NCBI GenBank assembly: GCA_947488305.1
Contig: CANKZM010000014.1
Coordinates: forward strand, 1-49,742
Length of the DNA: 49,742 nt
Reading direction: 5' to 3'
Source of the DNA: an uncultured Roseobacter sp.
GTDB lineage: Bacteria > Pseudomonadota > Alphaproteobacteria > Rhodobacterales > Rhodobacteraceae
Part shown: positions 12,296 to 20,168 of the stretch, piece by piece
Numbering within the stretch: position 1 is the first letter of the stretch
How the letters are laid out: each line of letters opens with the position of its first letter
Translations under genes and position numbers: made by a program
The notes under the pieces: generated by a model
Database searches by the model: none
What the model saw: the letters and a program-made list of their open reading frames with translations, nothing else
What the model was told of the DNA's origin: nothing

Positions 12296-14857
12296 CTACC
12301 AGTCCTGTCGCTCATAGGTTTCGGGCACGTCCTGCGCTTGCTCTGCTTCCGGGCCGGTCGCCACTGCTTCCTGCATGATTTCATCATCACCGCCAGCGTC
12401 GCCGGTGTCATCGCTTTCCGAATTCTCCAACCAGCCCGCGCCGTTTGCATCATCGAAACCAGCTTGGTCGATCAACATCAAGTGTTCCGGGTCGTCCGGT
12501 CCATTTTGTGGCGCGCTGTCGCCCTCGACGATGATTTGAAAAGAGGTGCTGGCCTCCAATGGTGCGCCGTTGAACCCCTCAACAGAAATCGTCACTTCGG
12601 CATTTATTTCGCCTGCAAAATCCGGTGGCGGCATGACCTCCAGCAGATCGAGGTTCCACCCATCCAAGCTGAGATCCGACCCATCTGATACGGCCGTCAT
12701 CTCGCCGCTTACAAGGATGGTATCGGCGGGTAAGCCGGAGATTGTCGCTGACCCGTTGTCGCCCAAATCGACCGTATCCAATCCAATGTCGATTGCGCCG
12801 TTTGCTTCCGTGGTCAATTCAGTATCGGCACGCACCAGTTCCCGGCCATCAGTGTCGGGACCATCCCATTCCAGTTTCAGACCGGCATGACCATAATTCT
12901 CAAAATATCGTACTTCGATTTCATGGGTGCCAGGCTCAAGCTCTATCTCGCCGGAGCGGGTTCGAAAGCCGTGTAGCCCGTCATTGTCGATCACCTCTTC
13001 GCCATTGATGTAGAGCACCACGCCGTCGTCGCCGCCGACGAAGAAGTCGTACAACCCGCCCTCTTCAACGGTGATCTCACCTGCGATCTTTGCCCCGAAT
13101 GTGTCGTTTGATCCTCCTTCCCAGAAGGAATCCCTGCTGTTGGTGTAATTCACCTCACCCACGACTTCTTCATGCGTGGGTGTGCCGTCCCAGTCGATCT
13201 GGTCTAGCTCTCGAAGGCTGTGATCCACGTCGAAATAGCTGGCCTTAAAGCCGGTTTGGACGTCGATCGTTGGGGGCGTCAGGTCCGCCGGATTTACTTC
13301 GAAATCAAGCGGATAGTGTTGTGTGGCTGCTGATCCGTCGTCCAGGGTAACGGTGCTCGACAACGAAGCTGAGACCTCTCCGGTGAAATCCATAGGTGGT
13401 GTGATCTGAACCAAGGAGACGTCCATGCCGGTCACGTCAACCATCCCGGATGCATCAACTTCCATCACCTGGTCACCCAGTTCTACAGAGCTCCCGGGAG
13501 GCAGCCCCTCAATGACATGGGTGGTTCCGGCGATGCCCTCTTCGATGTCGAGTTCGAGGGTCAATGGCATGCCGCTGACTGTTTGCAAGTCCTCCGCTGT
13601 TGGTGCGGTCACAAGCTCCCGCCCGTCGAGTCCTGGACCTTCCCACTCCAGTTTCAGTCCTGCATGGCCATAATTCTCAAAATACCTGACCTCGATCGAA
13701 TGCGTTCCCGGTTCCAGTTCGATTTCGCCAGAACGCGTTCTGAAACTATGCAAGCCATCGTTTTCAATGACTTCAACCCCGTTCACATAGAGGATGACGC
13801 CATCGTCACCGCCGATATGGAAATTGAAGGTGCCTCCTTCTTCGACTTCGATATTGCCGGTGATCTGAACCCCGAAAGTGTCCTTTGAGCCGCCTTCCCA
13901 GAATGAGTTGCTGCTGTTTTGGTAATTGACATCGCTCACGAGTTCTTCGTGCGTAGGGTCTACTTGCCAGTCTATGTCGTCGATGTCGCTAAGCCTGTGG
14001 TTAACGTCGAAGTATTTCGCATGAAATCCGGTGTCATGGCTGACCTCGGGCATGTCAGCGACAGCGATCTCAAAACTTTGCGTGAAAGATGCACCGCCTG
14101 AATCAGTGGCCGTCACATCAATGTTCAGATTGGCCGCTTCATCATGGTTGAGGCTGATCCCTTCTTTCAGTTTCAACGTGCCATCAACGACTTCAAAACG
14201 GTCGTCAGACACGTCGAAGCTGTGAGTGTCATTGGCATCGAGATCGGTGACAGAAAGTTCACCGACGACAGCCCCTTCTTCATTTTCAGCTACGGCGGTA
14301 TTGGACAAATCGACTGCCGTTGGCGCCTCGTTTACGTCTACCGGACCGTCCTGAACTTGCGCTTCCGGGACTAAAGAAGCCCTCGCAGTGGTGGAGACTC
14401 CAGAAGTACCGGGTTGTGACTCGCTTTGCGTTTCTGTTTCAGGATTGTTCGTCTTGGGCAAACCCAGGTCCGAAGGGTCGTCAGTGCCAGAACGGCGTGC
14501 TGATGTGCGTGGCGCGGCTGCATTTTCGACTGGACCAGTACCGGAATCGGCCGCGTCGCCAAACCCGTCAGATAAATTTGGCTCATTGCTACCGGCGCCT
14601 CCCTCTCCAAGAGGAGGGACCTCCGACGGTGGCGTATCCGCGGACGTTGGTGCACTGCCGAACTGTGATCCATCCGGCGAGGCTGATCCGAGGTCTTCGG
14701 GTTGTTCATCTTCACCATAATGCAGTGAACTGCGAGAGGGGTCGTCTTGTATCTGTTCAGCTGATTTCAGCGACTGCTCAGCGATCTTCTTTTTCAGATC
14801 GTCGCTATCATTGTCAGAGAAATTCTCGATACCTGGGTCTAAATCGTCGTCTGCCAT
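12296..14857 (-). CDS. Large acidic protein with cadherin-like and two PA14 domains; likely type I secretion substrate
   Basis: An 853-residue protein with no N-terminal signal peptide. Residues 1-165 are acidic, Ser/Pro/Gly-rich and probably disordered. Residues 175-268 look like a cadherin-type repeat (VDLSNTAVAENEEGAVVGEL). Two PA14 domains, at about 277-415 and 537-675, are near duplicates, sharing WEGGS, VEEGG, GGDDGV and LEPGTH blocks. Each is followed by a beta-sandwich-like segment. The C-terminus is again acidic and ends ETYERQDW. PA14 domains usually bind carbohydrate. The gene is divergent from the two-ABC-plus-HlyD operon across a 157-bp gap. The absence of a signal peptide, the acidic repeats and the location argue that it is exported by that system as a surface adhesin. 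I see no RTX nonapeptides. Confidence 0.78.
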   Translation of the reverse strand: MADDDLDPGIENFSDNDSDDLKKKIAEQSLKSAEQIQDDPSRSSLHYGEDEQPEDLGSASPDGSQFGSAPTSADTPPSEVPPLGEGGAGSNEPNLSDGFGDAADSGTGPVENAAAPRTSARRSGTDDPSDLGLPKTNNPETETQSESQPGTSGVSTTARASLVPEAQVQDGPVDVNEAPTAVDLSNTAVAENEEGAVVGELSVTDLDANDTHSFDVSDDRFEVVDGTLKLKEGISLNHDEAANLNIDVTATDSGGASFTQSFEIAVADMPEVSHDTGFHAKYFDVNHRLSDIDDIDWQVDPTHEELVSDVNYQNSSNSFWEGGSKDTFGVQITGNIEVEEGGTFNFHIGGDDGVILYVNGVEVIENDGLHSFRTRSGEIELEPGTHSIEVRYFENYGHAGLKLEWEGPGLDGRELVTAPTAEDLQTVSGMPLTLELDIEEGIAGTTHVIEGLPPGSSVELGDQVMEVDASGMVDVTGMDVSLVQITPPMDFTGEVSASLSSTVTLDDGSAATQHYPLDFEVNPADLTPPTIDVQTGFKASYFDVDHSLRELDQIDWDGTPTHEEVVGEVNYTNSRDSFWEGGSNDTFGAKIAGEITVEEGGLYDFFVGGDDGVVLYINGEEVIDNDGLHGFRTRSGEIELEPGTHEIEVRYFENYGHAGLKLEWDGPDTDGRELVRADTELTTEANGAIDIGLDTVDLGDNGSATISGLPADTILVSGEMTAVSDGSDLSLDGWNLDLLEVMPPPDFAGEINAEVTISVEGFNGAPLEASTSFQIIVEGDSAPQNGPDDPEHLMLIDQAGFDDANGAGWLENSESDDTGDAGGDDEIMQEAVATGPEAEQAQDVPETYERQDW

Positions 14858-15014: not shown

Positions 15015-16760
15015 ATGAACTGGAGCCAGGCCACCGCACCGATGACGATGCACAAGTCAGTGGAAGAACTAAAGCCTCGAATTGGTTTTACAATTTTAGC
15101 GGCGACACTTGCACTTAATCTTCTTGCAGTGGCGTTACCGCTTGTCGTGCTGCAGATTTTTGACCGTGTTATTCCCTTCCAGGCTACAGAAACGCTGTTC
15201 TTTCTTTTTGCGGGCATGTGCGTCGTGGCGGCCCTTGAGTTTACATTGAAATGGGCGCGCATCGTTTTGTTGAGCAACATCGGCGAGGAGTACGAGCGCG
15301 AGTTGACCTGCCGTTTTACACGCGCAGCACTGGATGCCGAGCCGGACGCATTTTCGAAAACCACTTCTGCGACCCATCTGGACCGGTTTGGTGCAATCTC
15401 GCAATTGCGTGGGTTTTATTCCGGCCAGGGGCGCATTCTGGCAATCGACCTGCCCTTCGCGGCTATTTTCATCGCAATGATTGGCTTTATCGGCGGGTGG
15501 CTCATTCTGGTCCCCTTGGCGAGTGTTGCGGTGCTCCTGCTGTTCAAGGTCGCGTTGAAACGGGTCCAATCCACAATTTTTGAGAAACGAAAAACACTGG
15601 ATGATCGCCGGTATTCCTTTTTGGTTGAGGTTCTTTCCCAGATCAAAACCCTCAAAGCGAACACGATGGAGCCGCAGATCCAACGCCGGTACGAACTGCT
15701 GCAAAATCAGACGTCGGATATCAGCCAGAGCGTCATCCAGTTTTCAGGCTTCTCGCAGTCCTTTGGAGCGCTGTTCTCGCAAATGGCGGTTGCCGCCATG
15801 GGGCTATTCGGCGGGTATCTGATCATCACCGGGCATATTGGTATCGCTGAACTCGCAGCCTGCATGTTGCTGAATGGCCGAACGGTTCAACCGATGCTCA
15901 AGGCTCTCAATCTTTGGGTTCAGACCGAGAACCTCTCAGCCTCCCGCGCGAAACTTGACGATGCGTTCCATGTGCCTACCCGACCAATTGCCAAGAAAAT
16001 GCCTGAAGAAATCGAAGGTCGGATCACATTCGATAATCTGGGCATGAAACATCCGGCCCGCGACGCATTCTTGTTTCGGAACCTGAATTTGGAGGTCGCG
16101 CCGACAGAAAACCTTGCTGTCTTTGGCCAGGGCGGCGCGGGTAAGTCCACGTTCATGAAACTGATCCTGGGGGAAGTGGAGCCGTCCGAAGGTCAAATTT
16201 TGATCGACGGTATTCCGGCCCGCGAGATGGTCGAGATGCGGGGTGTTGGACGGATCGGTTATGCCGATCAAAGGCCCGTGGTGTTTGCTGGAACAGTCCT
16301 AGAGAATATTTCGGCCTTTGGCGACGGAGAAACAATTGCGCGAGCGCTTGAGTTGTCTGAACGACTGGGGCTTGAGAAGGTGCTGCATCGTTTGCCAATG
16401 GGGTACAACACGCTGATGCAGGACAGTGCCGCGCTCGCGAATAATCACGCAGCCCTGTTGGGCATATCCCTTGTACGCACAATGGCCCTGCGCCCAAAAG
16501 TTTTGCTGCTCAACAATGTGACAACAACAATGGATTCAGGTGCCCGGCGTGCCTTTATGTCCCTGATCCGGGAAATTCAGGGGTCCACCACCCTGATCAT
16601 CTCCAGCACTGATCAGACACTTCTCGAAGTCGCGCAACGCCATCTTGATCTTTCCGCAGGGGCGAGCGCCGGGATCGAAGAGTGGATTGATGATGCTCAT
16701 GCCGACACCGCCGCTCAAAGTGGAAATGTGCATCTTTCTACCGAAAAGAAGACTGCCTGA
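15015..16760 (+). CDS. Type I secretion ABC half-transporter with degenerate ATPase domain (subunit 1)
   Basis: A 581-residue exporter of the PrtD/type I secretion family. Six membrane helices lie within residues 25-300, followed by a nucleotide-binding domain. Walker A is intact (GQGGAGKST, 371-379) and the Q-loop glutamine is present (YADQRP). The signature region has no LSGGQ. Walker B reads VLLLNN (N500, N501) where DE is expected, and the H-loop histidine is replaced (LIISST). It can probably bind ATP but not hydrolyse it alone. Its stop overlaps the start of the next ABC gene by one base, so the two likely form a heterodimer. ATG 15015 has no strong ribosome site, and ATG 15042 is an alternative. 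It is divergent from the PA14 protein gene. Confidence 0.85.
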   Translation: MNWSQATAPMTMHKSVEELKPRIGFTILAATLALNLLAVALPLVVLQIFDRVIPFQATETLFFLFAGMCVVAALEFTLKWARIVLLSNIGEEYERELTCRFTRAALDAEPDAFSKTTSATHLDRFGAISQLRGFYSGQGRILAIDLPFAAIFIAMIGFIGGWLILVPLASVAVLLLFKVALKRVQSTIFEKRKTLDDRRYSFLVEVLSQIKTLKANTMEPQIQRRYELLQNQTSDISQSVIQFSGFSQSFGALFSQMAVAAMGLFGGYLIITGHIGIAELAACMLLNGRTVQPMLKALNLWVQTENLSASRAKLDDAFHVPTRPIAKKMPEEIEGRITFDNLGMKHPARDAFLFRNLNLEVAPTENLAVFGQGGAGKSTFMKLILGEVEPSEGQILIDGIPAREMVEMRGVGRIGYADQRPVVFAGTVLENISAFGDGETIARALELSERLGLEKVLHRLPMGYNTLMQDSAALANNHAALLGISLVRTMALRPKVLLLNNVTTTMDSGARRAFMSLIREIQGSTTLIISSTDQTLLEVAQRHLDLSAGASAGIEEWIDDAHADTAAQSGNVHLSTEKKTA

Positions 16761-18850
16761 TGGATACAACCCTGACTCCAAGCCTGAATCTGCTGAGCCA
16801 GTTGATGTCCGCCGCCGGATGGCACAGCACGGAGAACCGGCTCTTCGAAGCGGTACCGCATATGTCCGACAGGCTTTCGCCGCAGGACATGACAAAGACG
16901 CTGGAAAACCTGGGCGTCCCGACGTCGTCGGAAACATGTCGGCTTGACGAAATCACAGCCGATGATTGTCCATCGCTCTTTGTGGATACCCGGGATCAGA
17001 TGCGGGCTGTCCTGGATGCGGCGGATGGTAAACTCCTTATCTCCGGGGTGGATGAAACGGAGCCTGAATGGGTGCCTGCTTCCCGGCTGCAGGGACAGCT
17101 TGTGCGGCTTGAGCGATTTGGGCGCGAGCGCGAGAGCTTTGAGCAAGAAAACTTTGGGAAGATTGCCGGAAGTTTCCGCAACCTGTTGCCCTGGCTTGTG
17201 TTTTCATCCTTCATGTCCAACCTTGCTGGCCTCGCAACGCCGCTTTTGATCATGATTATCTACGACCGGGTCATTCCCTCGGGATCAATTGACCTAGTGA
17301 CGTCGCTGGCACTGGTCGCATTGATATTGCTGGCGACGGATGCTGGATTTCGCCTGATCCGGTCCACTGCTGTGGCCCACATGGGACGCGAAACAGAACA
17401 CAGATTGGGTTTGGCGCTGTTCCACAAATTGCTCGCCTTGCCGATTTCACAAATCCAGAAGGCGAGCGTCGAACAACAGCTTGCCCGCTTTAAACAGTTC
17501 GAAAGCTTGCGCGACGTCTTTACGGGGCAGGTGCTTACGACCGTATTGGACTTGCCCTTCACTCTCATCTTTCTGGCCGTGCTCTACGCGTTATCGCCAC
17601 AAATTGCCCTGCTGATCATGGTTTTGATTGTCGTCTTCGTTGTTTTGACCTGTGGCACGCTGCCGATTCAAAAGGGGTTAAACGCGAAGGCGGCCGAGGA
17701 AAAATCGGCCTTGCAAAGCTTCGTTTTTGAAACGGCTGAAAACCAGCGGGCGATACAGCGGTTGGGGCTTGTCGACTATTGGGACCGTCGTGGCGCCGCG
17801 CTCAGCAAAAACAGCGCGAGTGCTACGCGGCGGGCCACGGCCTTCCAGCTGATTACGCAGAACTTAGGACAAAGCTTGATGGCGGTCGCGGGCTTGGGCG
17901 CTGTGTCTCTGGGGACGCTCAGCGCCATGCAAGGTGACATGACTTTTGGGGCCTTGATCGCTGTCTTATCACTGGTGTGGAAGGTCCTGACACCCCTTCA
18001 ATCCCTCTACGCAAACTCCGCGCAGATCGTCGCTTTCCAGACCAGCAAAACCCAAAGTGACCGTGTCCTCGCGCTGCCAGAGGAAATGGTGCGTGGCGTC
18101 GGTCAAAGCCACCAGAAAACCTTGCGGGGTCGCATTTCTGTATCGGGGGTAACCCATCGTTATGATGCCGCCAGTGCTCCGGTACTTTCCCAGATCTCGC
18201 TTGAGATTGAAGCAAACGAATTTGTCGTCATCGGAGGCGGCAGCAACAGCGGAAAAACATCACTGTTGAGTTTGTTGAACGGGTTTTATCAGCCCAGCAT
18301 CGGCATGATCCAGATTGATGGCATCGACATGCGCCAGATCGCCGTGGACGATCTGCGGCAGTCCATCACCTATGGTTTATCGCAGCCGGAGCTATTCTAC
18401 GGTACGGTCTTCCAGAACTTCCGCCTGGCCGCCCCGTCGCTCAGCCGAGATGAGGTCATGCAGGCCCTCGAAATGATCGGCCTCAAAGCAGAAATCGAAA
18501 GTTTTCCCGAAGGTTTGGACACCAGGTTGTCCGAAACTTTCAGGGCTGCACAGCCTCTTTCCGTTCTTCGAGCGATCGGGCTGGCACGCGCATTGGCGCG
18601 GGGTGGGTCGGTCTGTTTGCTGAACGAACCCTGTGCGGGTTTGGACGCGATGCGGGTAGACGCACTGGTGAGCGCTTTGCGCCAGCTGAAAGGCCAACGC
18701 ACCTTCATTATCGCTACCCAAGAGCCGGAAGTTGCAAAATTGGCGGACCGGTTGGTCTATCTGCAGAACGGCAGGGTCGTCGCAAATGATGTTGGACAAG
18801 CAGGAATGAAAAAGTTCGCGGCCCTCGTGAACCGATCAGGAGCAGAATGA
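16760..18850 (+). CDS. Type I secretion ABC half-transporter with C39-like domain and eroded ATPase motifs (subunit 2)
   Basis: A 696-residue exporter of the LapB/HlyB type. Residues 1 to about 130 look like a C39-peptidase-like domain without an obvious catalytic cysteine motif, as in substrate-docking exporters of large adhesins. The membrane region spans about 140-420. In the ATPase domain Walker A is acceptable (GGSNSGKT, 493-500) and the Q-loop is present (LSQPELF). The signature reads FRAAQPLSVLRAIGLARAL instead of LSGGQ. Walker B is CLLNEP, with N622 replacing Asp and E623 retained. The H-loop position is Q654 (IATQEP). It thus keeps the catalytic glutamate its partner lacks. The HlyD-type adaptor gene begins two bases after this stop codon. 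Confidence 0.87.
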   Translation: MDTTLTPSLNLLSQLMSAAGWHSTENRLFEAVPHMSDRLSPQDMTKTLENLGVPTSSETCRLDEITADDCPSLFVDTRDQMRAVLDAADGKLLISGVDETEPEWVPASRLQGQLVRLERFGRERESFEQENFGKIAGSFRNLLPWLVFSSFMSNLAGLATPLLIMIIYDRVIPSGSIDLVTSLALVALILLATDAGFRLIRSTAVAHMGRETEHRLGLALFHKLLALPISQIQKASVEQQLARFKQFESLRDVFTGQVLTTVLDLPFTLIFLAVLYALSPQIALLIMVLIVVFVVLTCGTLPIQKGLNAKAAEEKSALQSFVFETAENQRAIQRLGLVDYWDRRGAALSKNSASATRRATAFQLITQNLGQSLMAVAGLGAVSLGTLSAMQGDMTFGALIAVLSLVWKVLTPLQSLYANSAQIVAFQTSKTQSDRVLALPEEMVRGVGQSHQKTLRGRISVSGVTHRYDAASAPVLSQISLEIEANEFVVIGGGSNSGKTSLLSLLNGFYQPSIGMIQIDGIDMRQIAVDDLRQSITYGLSQPELFYGTVFQNFRLAAPSLSRDEVMQALEMIGLKAEIESFPEGLDTRLSETFRAAQPLSVLRAIGLARALARGGSVCLLNEPCAGLDAMRVDALVSALRQLKGQRTFIIATQEPEVAKLADRLVYLQNGRVVANDVGQAGMKKFAALVNRSGAE

Positions 18851-18851
18851 C

Positions 18852-20168
18852 ATGACAGGAAACGCAAACCCCTCGCCCAAGAATGGTGTCTTCGCGCGGT
18901 CAGCTGAGCGTTCTGCCCGCAGCGCACCCAAGCTCGCCGGAATTCTGGTAATGACGATCACCGGCTTTTTGGGCGGTATGCTCTGGATGGCGACCACAAC
19001 CAAAGTGCCAGAGCTGACACGGGCCAGCGGCGCTTTGGTCCCAACCGGACGTTACCACCAAATTCAGGCCCCCGAGGCAGGAGTAGTCGTCTCGGTCAAC
19101 GTGGCCGAAGGACAAACGATAATGCGTGGTCAGGTGTTGGCCGAACTTTCCTCACTCACTCTCGATCAGCAGGAACAGGACCTGAGACAAGAGGCCACGT
19201 CCAATGATCTGAAGCTCAAAAACTACCGGGCGATCCTGGCGGCCTCGGAAACCAGCGATCTGACACTGGACGGTTTGGCCTCTGCGGATATGGAGTACGC
19301 CGCCACCCAAATCACTTTGCTTGGGAAAAAACAAAATGCACAGGAGGAACTGGTGGCGCGTTTAAGGGAAACCCTCCACACCCTGCAACGGGCCCGTGGA
19401 TTGGCTGAAAAACGTGTCGACGCCAAAGCGATCTCCGTCGAAAAAGACGAAGAGTTGTTTGCAAAAGGATTGACGACCGCGCGCGATCTGGACGCGCAAC
19501 GGGATCGGCTTGACCAACTGCAAGCAAGCCTCGTCGATGTTGACGTCCGTCTTTCACAACTTCAGAAAGACCTGAGCACCGCCTTGTCCAACGCGACGCA
19601 AACGCGTCTGGCACTACAGGAAAAATACTCCGAGCAAGTATTCGAGCTGGAACTGCGTCAGCAAGCGCTTGCAGTACAGGCCGCTGCACTCACCGCGCAA
19701 CGCGAAGCGATGAAGGTGCGGGCCCCGGAAAACGGGATCGTGCACGCGATCAGTTTTCCCAATCCAGGCGAAATAATCGCAGCCGGTGATGTGCTCTTCG
19801 AACTCTTGCCGACGGAACAAAACCTTGTGGCTGAAATCGAAGTCAATCCACTGGACATCGGCCATATTTCCAAAGGAGATGCTGTTGCTCTGAAATTCGA
19901 TACTTTCGATCCGCGCCGCTACGGGCAGGTTGAGGGTGAGATCATCAGTATTTCTCCAAACTCGGTGATGGACCGTGAAACAGGGCAGGAACATTTCCGG
20001 GCGACGGTGGAATTGTCAGGCGCGACGATCGGGCAGGGTGTCTGGCAGCGTACCCTGCAATCCGGAATGACAACTACCGCAGAGATTGTAACCGATGAGC
20101 GGACGGTGTTGGCATACCTCCTCAAACCGATCAACCGGTCACTGGAAAACGCCTTTGGCGAACGTTAG
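18852..20168 (+). CDS. HlyD-family periplasmic adaptor (membrane fusion protein) of type I secretion system
   Basis: A 438-residue adaptor. A short cytoplasmic N-terminus is followed by one membrane helix (about 28-48, LAGILVMTITGFLGGMLW). Next come the lipoyl half-motif YHQIQAPEAGVVVSVNVAEG, a long coiled coil (about 100-285) and the second lipoyl half (VRAPENGIVHAISFPNPGE). The last part is a beta-barrel domain near 310-420. This is the standard plan for proteins that bridge an inner-membrane ABC exporter to a TolC-like channel. No outer-membrane channel gene is seen, so the chromosome must supply one. The stop is three bases from the convergent citryl-CoA-lyase-like gene, with no room for a terminator. 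Confidence 0.92.
   Translation: MTGNANPSPKNGVFARSAERSARSAPKLAGILVMTITGFLGGMLWMATTTKVPELTRASGALVPTGRYHQIQAPEAGVVVSVNVAEGQTIMRGQVLAELSSLTLDQQEQDLRQEATSNDLKLKNYRAILAASETSDLTLDGLASADMEYAATQITLLGKKQNAQEELVARLRETLHTLQRARGLAEKRVDAKAISVEKDEELFAKGLTTARDLDAQRDRLDQLQASLVDVDVRLSQLQKDLSTALSNATQTRLALQEKYSEQVFELELRQQALAVQAAALTAQREAMKVRAPENGIVHAISFPNPGEIIAAGDVLFELLPTEQNLVAEIEVNPLDIGHISKGDAVALKFDTFDPRRYGQVEGEIISISPNSVMDRETGQEHFRATVELSGATIGQGVWQRTLQSGMTTTAEIVTDERTVLAYLLKPINRSLENAFGER

Follow-up and report, generated by a model that had tools for sequence, protein, structure and literature searches.

ABC exporters are commonly regarded as ATP-driven. Heterodimeric members with one degenerate site are nevertheless known, including TM287/288 and TmrAB, and the degenerate exporters described in the cited parts of two articles keep one working site (PMC7756269, PMC8277102). 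Among type I secretion systems (T1SS), MARTX loci carry two ABC genes; the cited section of a review reports both as necessary and describes the second ABC protein as an additional ATPase (PMC3034196). The same source presents the proton motive force as being used alongside ATP in HlyA export (PMC3034196). In the cited part of another article, SbmA is described as a proton-driven transporter that evolved from ABC exporters (PMC13316013).

Here, we analyze a two-ABC locus from an uncultured Roseobacter sp. that lies within a window of 49,742 nucleotides (GCA_947488305.1, contig CANKZM010000014.1, positions 1 to 49,742), where positions below are counted. An earlier note, made from the DNA letters alone, proposed that the locus encodes a T1SS exporter built from two ABC subunits with motifs eroded in both. 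This is borne out by the analysis, and the loss extends across a whole lineage.

Results

S1 (581 aa, 15015..16760, forward strand) and S2 (696 aa, 16760..18850, forward strand) are T1SS ABC half-exporters encoded next to genes for an HlyD adaptor and, in divergent orientation, a PA14 cargo. Both are intact open reading frames with a pseudo-ATPase domain, and S1 begins directly with its membrane domain. Pfam matches above cut-off to PF00664 and PF00005 are found in S1 (4.1e-25 and 7.6e-16) and S2 (3.2e-25 and 1.3e-14). The periplasmic adaptor (438 aa, 18852..20168, forward strand) is intact and scores 231.1 bits against TIGR01843 (cut-off 208.65). The cargo (853 aa, 12296..14857, reverse strand) is an intact, acidic protein with two PA14 stretches. 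This arrangement of two ABC genes and an HlyD gene divergent from the substrate gene is found at the window and the core loci defined below.

Neither ABC protein reaches the curated cut-offs for T1SS exporters. Against TIGR03375, S2 scores 352 bits and S1 308 bits, about half of the 693.1 required. S2 also falls under TIGR01846 (249.6 vs 725.55 bits) and TIGR01842 (235.1 vs 510.15 bits), with S1 lower still. The alignment of S2 to the T1SS profile begins at residue 9; its N-terminal region is probably C39-like, and Pfam names no domain there. Structure models of the two window proteins S1 and S2 have pLDDT values of 36.4 and 35.2, too low to be usable. There is no TolC-type match on the window's contig, and the system therefore already relies on a part encoded elsewhere.

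In S1 (all coordinates forward strand), the Walker A motif GQGGAGKS (residues 371-378, 16125..16148) and the Gln of the Q-loop YADQRPVVF (16260..16286) are kept. The signature region NNHAALLGISLVRTM (16440..16484) lacks LSGGQ, with NNHAALLG where it is expected. In VLLLNNVTTTMD (16500..16535), N500 stands at the Walker B Asp position and N501 at that of the catalytic Glu, and the His is lost from the H-loop region TTLIISSTDQ (16587..16616).

S2 (forward strand) likewise keeps Walker A (GGSNSGKT, residues 493-500, 18236..18259). LSGGQ is absent from its signature region QPLSVLRAIGLARAL (18551..18595), where QPLSVLR is present. In the Walker B region VCLLNEPCAGLD (18611..18646) the Asp is lost and Glu623 kept, giving an N622-E623 pair, and the H-loop region RTFIIATQEP (18698..18727) has lost its His. 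On all of these points, for both subunits, the earlier note read the motifs correctly. It also assigned a Q-loop to both subunits, which holds for S1 but not for S2: the aligned residue in YGLSQPELF (18371..18397) is Ser, followed directly by a Gln, and a relative (L101) has YCLSPPELF. A complete ATP site, comprising Walker A, Walker B, signature, and H-loop, is absent from the window pair.

To place this loss, we compared a home set of 25 pairs (the window, 22 from its family, and two from Phaeobacter plasmids), including a core clade of 16 pairs, with an outside set. The latter consists of 40 stretches chosen among the listed high-scoring matches, mostly from the top of the lists, and is therefore biased toward relatives resembling the eroded S1 profile. 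It provided 41 S1 and 39 S2 proteins for counting LSGGQ, two of the S2 proteins being cut by contig ends. For comparisons between pairs, 37 remained once four rows were dropped: in L182 and L206 the S2 gene is truncated at a contig end, L186 has no S2 within its stretch, and the contig of L193 stops after S1. A scan of genome contigs with S1 returned only five distant ABC proteins, which were left out of the analysis.

Exact LSGGQ is found in none of the home-set proteins (0/25 S1, 0/25 S2) and none of the outside ones (0/41 S1, 0/39 S2). Signature loss is thus old and family-wide. The earlier note called the loss from both halves very unusual; in the S1/S2 family it is the rule. In a search of 248 family genomes, an LSGGQ-like motif is absent from both halves of all 14 pairs found besides the window, while 15 of 16 single-gene exporters have one (14 of the 15 scanned, plus L064).

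Motif loss beyond LSGGQ is particular to the home set. A complete composite ATP site is found in 0/25 of its pairs, whereas 28/37 outside pairs have at least one, with a non-LSGGQ signature; the other nine outside pairs have no complete site either. The Walker A Lys is gone from both halves in 6/25 home-set pairs, all in the core clade (6/16), versus 0/37 outside pairs; S2 retains it in 19/25 home-set pairs. One copy without this Lys in S1 and S2 alike belongs to Phaeobacter gallaeciensis DSM 26640 (L098). The same loss occurs in several genera and on plasmids. The earlier note expected homologues with normal motifs in otherwise identical operons if decay were local. Two-ABC operons elsewhere in the phylum do have much fuller motifs, but loss in the home set is lineage-wide.

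The operon is under purifying selection. S1, S2, and HlyD are neighbors with open frames in 16/16 core loci. Oriented divergently from them, a PA14-type cargo gene is present in 15/16, one of the 15 being truncated at a contig end; the sixteenth contig starts at S1. Where estimable, dN/dS of the ATPase domains is 0.04-0.23, including 0.12 and 0.17 in a Phaeobacter pair without the Walker A Lys. These results uphold the earlier argument from intact frames, adaptor, and cargo, and on the basis of the open frames and low dN/dS local decay was rejected. The observation is real, reflecting neither chance nor local decay.

S1 and S2 are two old paired lineages. In the tree, S1 rows cluster together, S2 rows do likewise, and the same core clade is recovered in each half. 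The genes adjoin in most loci and are fused in L099, L190, and L194; in A. lipoferum, S1 and S2 are annotated as a single protein. The shared core clade and the A. lipoferum annotation are indirect hints that the two proteins may act as a pair.

Within the core clade, membrane domains are better conserved than ATPase domains. Where membrane domains are 0.4-0.5 identical, the ATPase domains reach identities of 0.32 in S1 and 0.39 in S2 within the core, compared with 0.41 and 0.50 outside. The mean conservation percentile of the catalytic columns (0 = most conserved) is 0.60 and 0.49 in the core versus 0.28 and 0.30 outside, where the S1 His and S2 signature columns are also poorly conserved. 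A search of the membrane domain for an SbmA-type glutamate ladder yielded two clade-specific candidate residues in S1. Glu279 (15849..15851, forward strand) is acidic in 16/16 core pairs and 1/37 outside pairs; Glu305 (15927..15929, forward strand) is acidic in 16/16 and 0/37, the outside residue being mostly Gln. Both may be common to the core clade through descent.

The cargo has conserved ends. Its N-terminal RSSLHYG (14714..14734, reverse strand) contains a conserved LHxG, and its C-terminal ETYERQDW (12299..12322, reverse strand) is a candidate secretion signal. The tail pattern [DE]T[YI]ERxDW is found in 14/14 readable core cargos and is unique in the genome. Together with the conserved membrane domains and the adjacent HlyD gene, this invariant tail indicates a dedicated exporter. 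The pair probably exports the adjoining PA14 cargo.

Discussion

Since the same loss is found in other genera with the genes intact, the exporter may dispense with ATP hydrolysis or draw on another pump. We tentatively favor, at a little under an even chance, a dedicated heterodimeric T1SS in which the ATPase domains have turned into pseudo-ATPases that selection maintains, with export proceeding without a complete ATP site. S1 and S2 would be the halves of an old exporter dedicated to PA14/cadherin surface proteins. In an ancestor-like state, most catalytic residues would come from the ATPase domain of S2 and the unusual signature (often LPxGxxQ) from S1. The window's family would then have lost catalytic residues from both halves while keeping both nucleotide-binding domains in a structural, cargo-recognition, or gating role. 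The pair would most likely serve as a gated conduit that recognizes the conserved cargo tail and operates together with HlyD and with a TolC whose gene lies elsewhere. Export might be pulled through by the proton motive force and by folding outside the cell. ATP would be at most a bound ligand, in those lineages that retain Walker A. The window pair itself stands short of full loss, as each half retains Walker A and S2 its Glu623.

Other explanations must be weighed against this. Export by the pair may require a canonical T1SS ABC protein from the same cell as a partner; that partner would hydrolyze ATP in trans while S1-S2 confer cargo specificity. Because at least two HlyD-type adaptors besides the core pair's own are present in all 14 core genomes checked, such help could be available, and the TolC-type part must in any case come from beyond the window's contig. 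The canonical exporter L003 is matched at E 1e-55 in 13 of these genomes, and a simple pattern detects an LSGGQ-like motif in 28 of the 30 matching loci that were read. The fourteenth, G171, was considered as a core genome with no other T1SS and rejected: it has no L003 match, yet an ABC gene (L242, with Walker A and DEP) adjoins its third HlyD gene. The simple pattern gave no LSGGQ-like match in L242, and one of the two further adaptors in G171 belongs to a second eroded pair. However, S1-S2 resemble a self-matched pair: both halves show one and the same core clade, and their genes are mostly adjacent and sometimes fused. BLAST with the window's four proteins found no canonical ABC gene beside the pair in core loci. 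We consider energization in trans unlikely. It is very unlikely that the pair has ceased to export and acts as a membrane scaffold, sensor, or retention anchor while another T1SS exports the cargo. The absent ATPase motifs and the presence of other T1SSs would fit this role, but the better-conserved membrane domains of the core, the HlyD gene adjacent in 16/16 loci, and the invariant, unique cargo tail speak for export.

Slow ATP hydrolysis through non-canonical residues is quite unlikely. Both window subunits retain the Walker A Lys and S2 also Glu623, most home-set pairs keep the Lys in S2, and the wider family lives without exact LSGGQ, so signature loss alone need not abolish activity. Against this, neither window half has the Walker B Asp or the H-loop His any longer. 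The slow or differently gated exporter suggested in the earlier note is thus conceivable for the window pair yet does not serve well as a general explanation, since in 6/16 core pairs both halves have lost the Walker A Lys. Finally, catalytic residues vary freely within the core clade, as they would in a dying operon. Such decay is highly improbable given the open frames of S1, S2, and HlyD throughout the core loci, dN/dS far below 1 where estimable, and identical losses in several genera and on plasmids.

A whole branch without a complete site, with relatives in graded loss, would make the role of ATP hydrolysis in type I secretion testable, as well as whether ATPase domains can persist for other work. 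In addition, automatic naming as 'ABC transporter' masks lineage-wide loss of ATPase motifs. In the strongest form of the favored reading, a T1SS would have turned from an ATP-driven ABC exporter into a mover of large surface proteins without ATP hydrolysis, its former ATPase domains now cargo-reading or gating pseudo-enzymes. We regard this as possible but doubtful; if true, it would show a system partway between primary and secondary transport.

Relation to described exporters

S1-S2 share with HlyB/LssB-type T1SS (TIGR03375, TIGR01846) a membrane and an ATPase domain, an HlyD partner, and an adjoining cargo gene, and S2 aligns to the TIGR03375 profile nearly end to end. They differ in being two distinct subunits and in the loss of LSGGQ, Walker B Asp, and H-loop His. 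The four-component MARTX system with RtxB and RtxE, as described in the cited section, likewise combines two ABC genes with an HlyD-type gene in one operon, oriented divergently from the substrate gene; the likeness is one of gene arrangement (PMC3034196). As in the cited accounts of TM287/288 and TmrAB (PMC7756269, PMC8277102), much of the wider family is an asymmetric pair with one half more degenerate. Unlike those one-degenerate-site heterodimers, home-set pairs have no consensus site (0/25). With SbmA, as portrayed in the cited part of its source, S1-S2 may share an ABC exporter fold running without ATP hydrolysis, shown for SbmA and proposed here (PMC13316013). SbmA, however, is described there as importing peptides and having no ATPase domains (PMC13316013), whereas S1-S2 keep their PF00005 domains and are expected to export.

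Organization of the operon

The window carries a unit of four genes. The presumed cargo gene (12296-14857) lies on the minus strand; its product has 853 aa, of which 21% are acidic, and two PA14 stretches. The divergent plus-strand genes encode the two ABC half-exporters, S1 (15015-16760) and S2 (16760-18850), and a HlyD-type periplasmic adaptor (18852-20168; TIGR01843, 231.1 bits against a cut-off of 208.65). S1 and S2 each match ABC membrane and ABC ATPase domains. Their top-scoring models are type I secretion system (T1SS) exporters, yet the scores reach about half of the curated cut-offs. A TolC-type search of the window's genome gave seven domain matches in four reading frames, with none on the window's contig.

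The standard motifs of ABC ATPases are Walker A, Walker B, the LSGGQ signature, the Q-loop and the H-loop. The motif losses that the earlier note described in S1 and S2 are borne out. The exception is the Q-loop Gln it took to be kept in S2, where the aligned residue is Ser.

Motif state across the two-ABC family

The window's family is probably Rhodobacteraceae/Roseobacteraceae, judging by its Phaeobacter plasmid relatives. Searching 248 family genomes with S2 (E 1e-60) identified 31 places, comprising 15 pairs (window included) and 16 single-gene exporters. An LSGGQ-like motif is absent from both halves in all 14 non-window pairs. Counting LSGGQ, MSGGQ, LSVGQ and LSIGQ, it is present in 14 of 15 scanned single-gene exporters (L032 lacks it by pattern), and the sixteenth, L064, reads LSIGQ. 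S1 was detected in nine of 19 genomes of the genus, including the window's own. A plasmid search added 11 Phaeobacter and four Azospirillum records, from which P. piscinae pP36_f, P. gallaeciensis pGal_A255 and one A. lipoferum record were examined; the passages that treat pGal_A255 in the P. gallaeciensis genome paper are silent on the S1-S2 operon. Searching plasmids with the cargo returned the same 11 Phaeobacter plasmids and two Ruegeria plasmids at 34-35% coverage. The resulting home set contains 25 pairs (the window, 14, eight and two), 16 of which form a core clade around the window. For an outside set, an S1 alignment was searched against 337 class and 349 phylum genomes; 40 stretches selected from the matches, together with Azospirillum, provide 41 S1 and 39 S2 sequences and 37 complete pairs.

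Exact LSGGQ occurs in neither half of any home pair (0/25 S1, 0/25 S2) nor in the outside set (0/41 S1, 0/39 S2, two of the latter ending at a contig edge). Because it is missing from both sets, its loss is an old trait of the two-ABC family. A variant, LPxGxxQ, is found in 25 of 41 outside S1 sequences, and LPxG in three of 25 home S1 sequences. Outside S1 sequences (n = 41) retain the second signature Gly in 39 cases, the Walker A Lys in 35, the Walker B Asp in 40, the catalytic Glu in 25 and the H-loop His in 14; for S2 (n = 37), Lys, Asp, Glu and His are retained in 36, 37, 36 and 29. When a complete composite site is defined as these four residues from one half plus the second signature Gly from the other, at least one is present in 28 of 37 outside pairs compared with 0 of 25 home pairs. 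A looser criterion (Lys, Asp and Glu of S2 plus the S1 signature Gly) gives 34/37 against 1/25, the sole home pair being L063, the S2 of which clusters with outside sequences in the membrane-domain tree. The Walker A Lys is gone from both halves in six of 25 home pairs (L047-L050 and the Phaeobacter plasmid loci L097 and L098) compared with 0 of 37 outside. On these counts, the wider family resembles a heterodimeric exporter in which mainly one site is usable and the signature is unusual; the home set is the eroded branch of this family. Erosion extends beyond the home set, given that a complete site is likewise missing from nine of the 37 outside pairs.

Probable pairing of the two halves

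A quick tree of membrane-domain columns only, with SH-aLRT support and ten outgroup rows, places all 66 S1 rows in one group (95). All 64 S2 rows also group (97), joined by one long-branch ABC protein of the window's own genome; among the ten outgroup rows, two on long branches fall in the wrong place. The 16-pair core clade is recovered in both halves (support 99 for S2, 93 for S1), and branching order within the halves is broadly alike as judged by eye. In A. lipoferum (L099, 8599-12882; annotated 1378 aa), S1 and S2 form a single protein, and its gene adjoins a HlyD gene and one for a giant Ig-like protein. L190 (5426-9382) and L194 (6038-9991) encode fusions as well; as called, each of the three is a full-length ABC protein of about 1320-1430 aa in a T1SS operon. 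These fusions and the matching core clade lend indirect support to a predicted S1-S2 heterodimer.

Several loci vary in arrangement. One core genome, G171, holds two distinct eroded pairs (L048, L053), each with its own HlyD and divergent cargo gene. The S1-S2 gap is about 1.3 kb in L192 (4400-10997) and 1.8 kb in L206 (4214-9450), and the HlyD gene of L192 is divergent and upstream of S1, against the usual order. In L186 (4642-7110), HlyD comes directly after an S1-type gene (822 aa), and the stretch yielded no S2. A sub-branch has a longer S1 of about 645 aa (L054, 1306-3243; L055, 1116-3050). In the window's own genome, ABC genes L005 (C1:247951) and L006 (C1:824844) have near-identical scores and motifs and each precede a HlyD gene of similar score, which looks like a recent duplication.

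Conservation of the ATPase domains

S1, S2 and HlyD have open frames in all 16 core loci. Nei-Gojobori dN/dS values for the ATPase domains, computed on ten pairs and given where dS was estimable, are 0.06-0.23 for S1 and 0.04-0.17 for S2. In only two of the ten pairs is dS well below 1: L104-L106, with dN/dS of 0.06 and 0.08, and the Phaeobacter pair that lacks Walker A Lys, with dN/dS of 0.12 and 0.17 (dS 0.29 and 0.26). The remaining pairs have dS above 1, near saturation, and many cells hold no value, including all for the window against L100. Relaxed constraint is also visible in the core: where membrane domains share an identity of 0.4-0.5, the ATPase domains of core S1 and S2 share 0.32 and 0.39, compared with 0.41 and 0.50 outside. 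Among canonical exporters, the most distant pairs are more alike in the ATPase domain than in the membrane domain (0.39 vs 0.28), and closer pairs are about equal.

In the core, the catalytic columns have dropped out of the conserved set; the S1 His and S2 signature columns are poorly conserved outside too. Nevertheless, the ATPase domains of all 16 core pairs share 23 invariant columns in S1 and 29 in S2, and charged residues specific to the clade occur at S1 R409 and D560 and S2 D530 and D/E655. The core domains have the look of a pseudo-enzyme, not of a decayed relic, although the clade-specific residues may also reflect common descent. S2 residue 633 (18656-18658) is mostly acidic outside, Lys or Arg in the core and Val in the window, while residue 655 (18722-18724) is mostly Arg outside and acidic in the core; a swapped salt bridge is possible.

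Cargo termini

Every core cargo whose end could be read (14 of 14) terminates in [DE]T[YI]ER[QMCV]DW, a tail absent from the two next relatives (L051, L053). A DNA pattern for YERxDW plus stop occurs once genome-wide, in the window's cargo gene. Among loci with a callable divergent ORF of at least 300 aa, an N-terminal LHxG is present in 15/15 home and 4/14 outside cases, against 0.41 expected by shuffling in these 29 loci; the count omits nine home and 27 outside loci without such an ORF. The window cargo reads RSSLHYG, and the contig-cut cargo of L046 LHYG. Counting against this motif, L056 and L058, home loci that lie outside the core, have an acidic gene without LHxG upstream of S1 on the same strand. 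Two complete outside cargos end in EKIEW (L171) and EAIQW (L175), two others in EKIEG (L174) and ERIEWGGGG (L204), and L184 and L168 end otherwise. RTX calcium-binding repeats were found in one outside cargo (L174) and in none of three home cargos scanned. Cargo ends and exporter have been maintained jointly in the core clade, which is the strongest indirect indication that export continues.

Energy source and comparison with known exporters

We drew on PMC7756269, PMC8277102, PMC3034196, PMC4148982 and PMC13316013, each in part. Within open-licence literature, judged mostly by title and abstract, we recognised no description of T1SS exporters with both ATP sites lost. The eroded pair is very unlikely to hydrolyse ATP through a canonical two-site sandwich. 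Its energization in trans, by a canonical T1SS exporter of the same cell, is possible at a fairly low probability; it is kept in play by the further T1SS adaptors in all 14 core genomes and by the canonical exporter matches with normal motifs that are common in them (the two plasmid hosts fall outside this count).

Two acidic residues of the S1 membrane domain give weak support to proton coupling. E279 is acidic in 16/16 core and 1/37 outside pairs, and also in L051 and L053; E305 is acidic in 16/16 core and 0/37 outside pairs, and also in L052, L055, L056 and L058. Going by the general topology of exporters, these two residues would sit close to either end of the final membrane helix. Among known systems, T1SS export is described as using proton motive force besides ATP (PMC3034196). 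In SbmA, as presented in PMC13316013, an ABC exporter fold became proton driven after loss of its ATPase domains.
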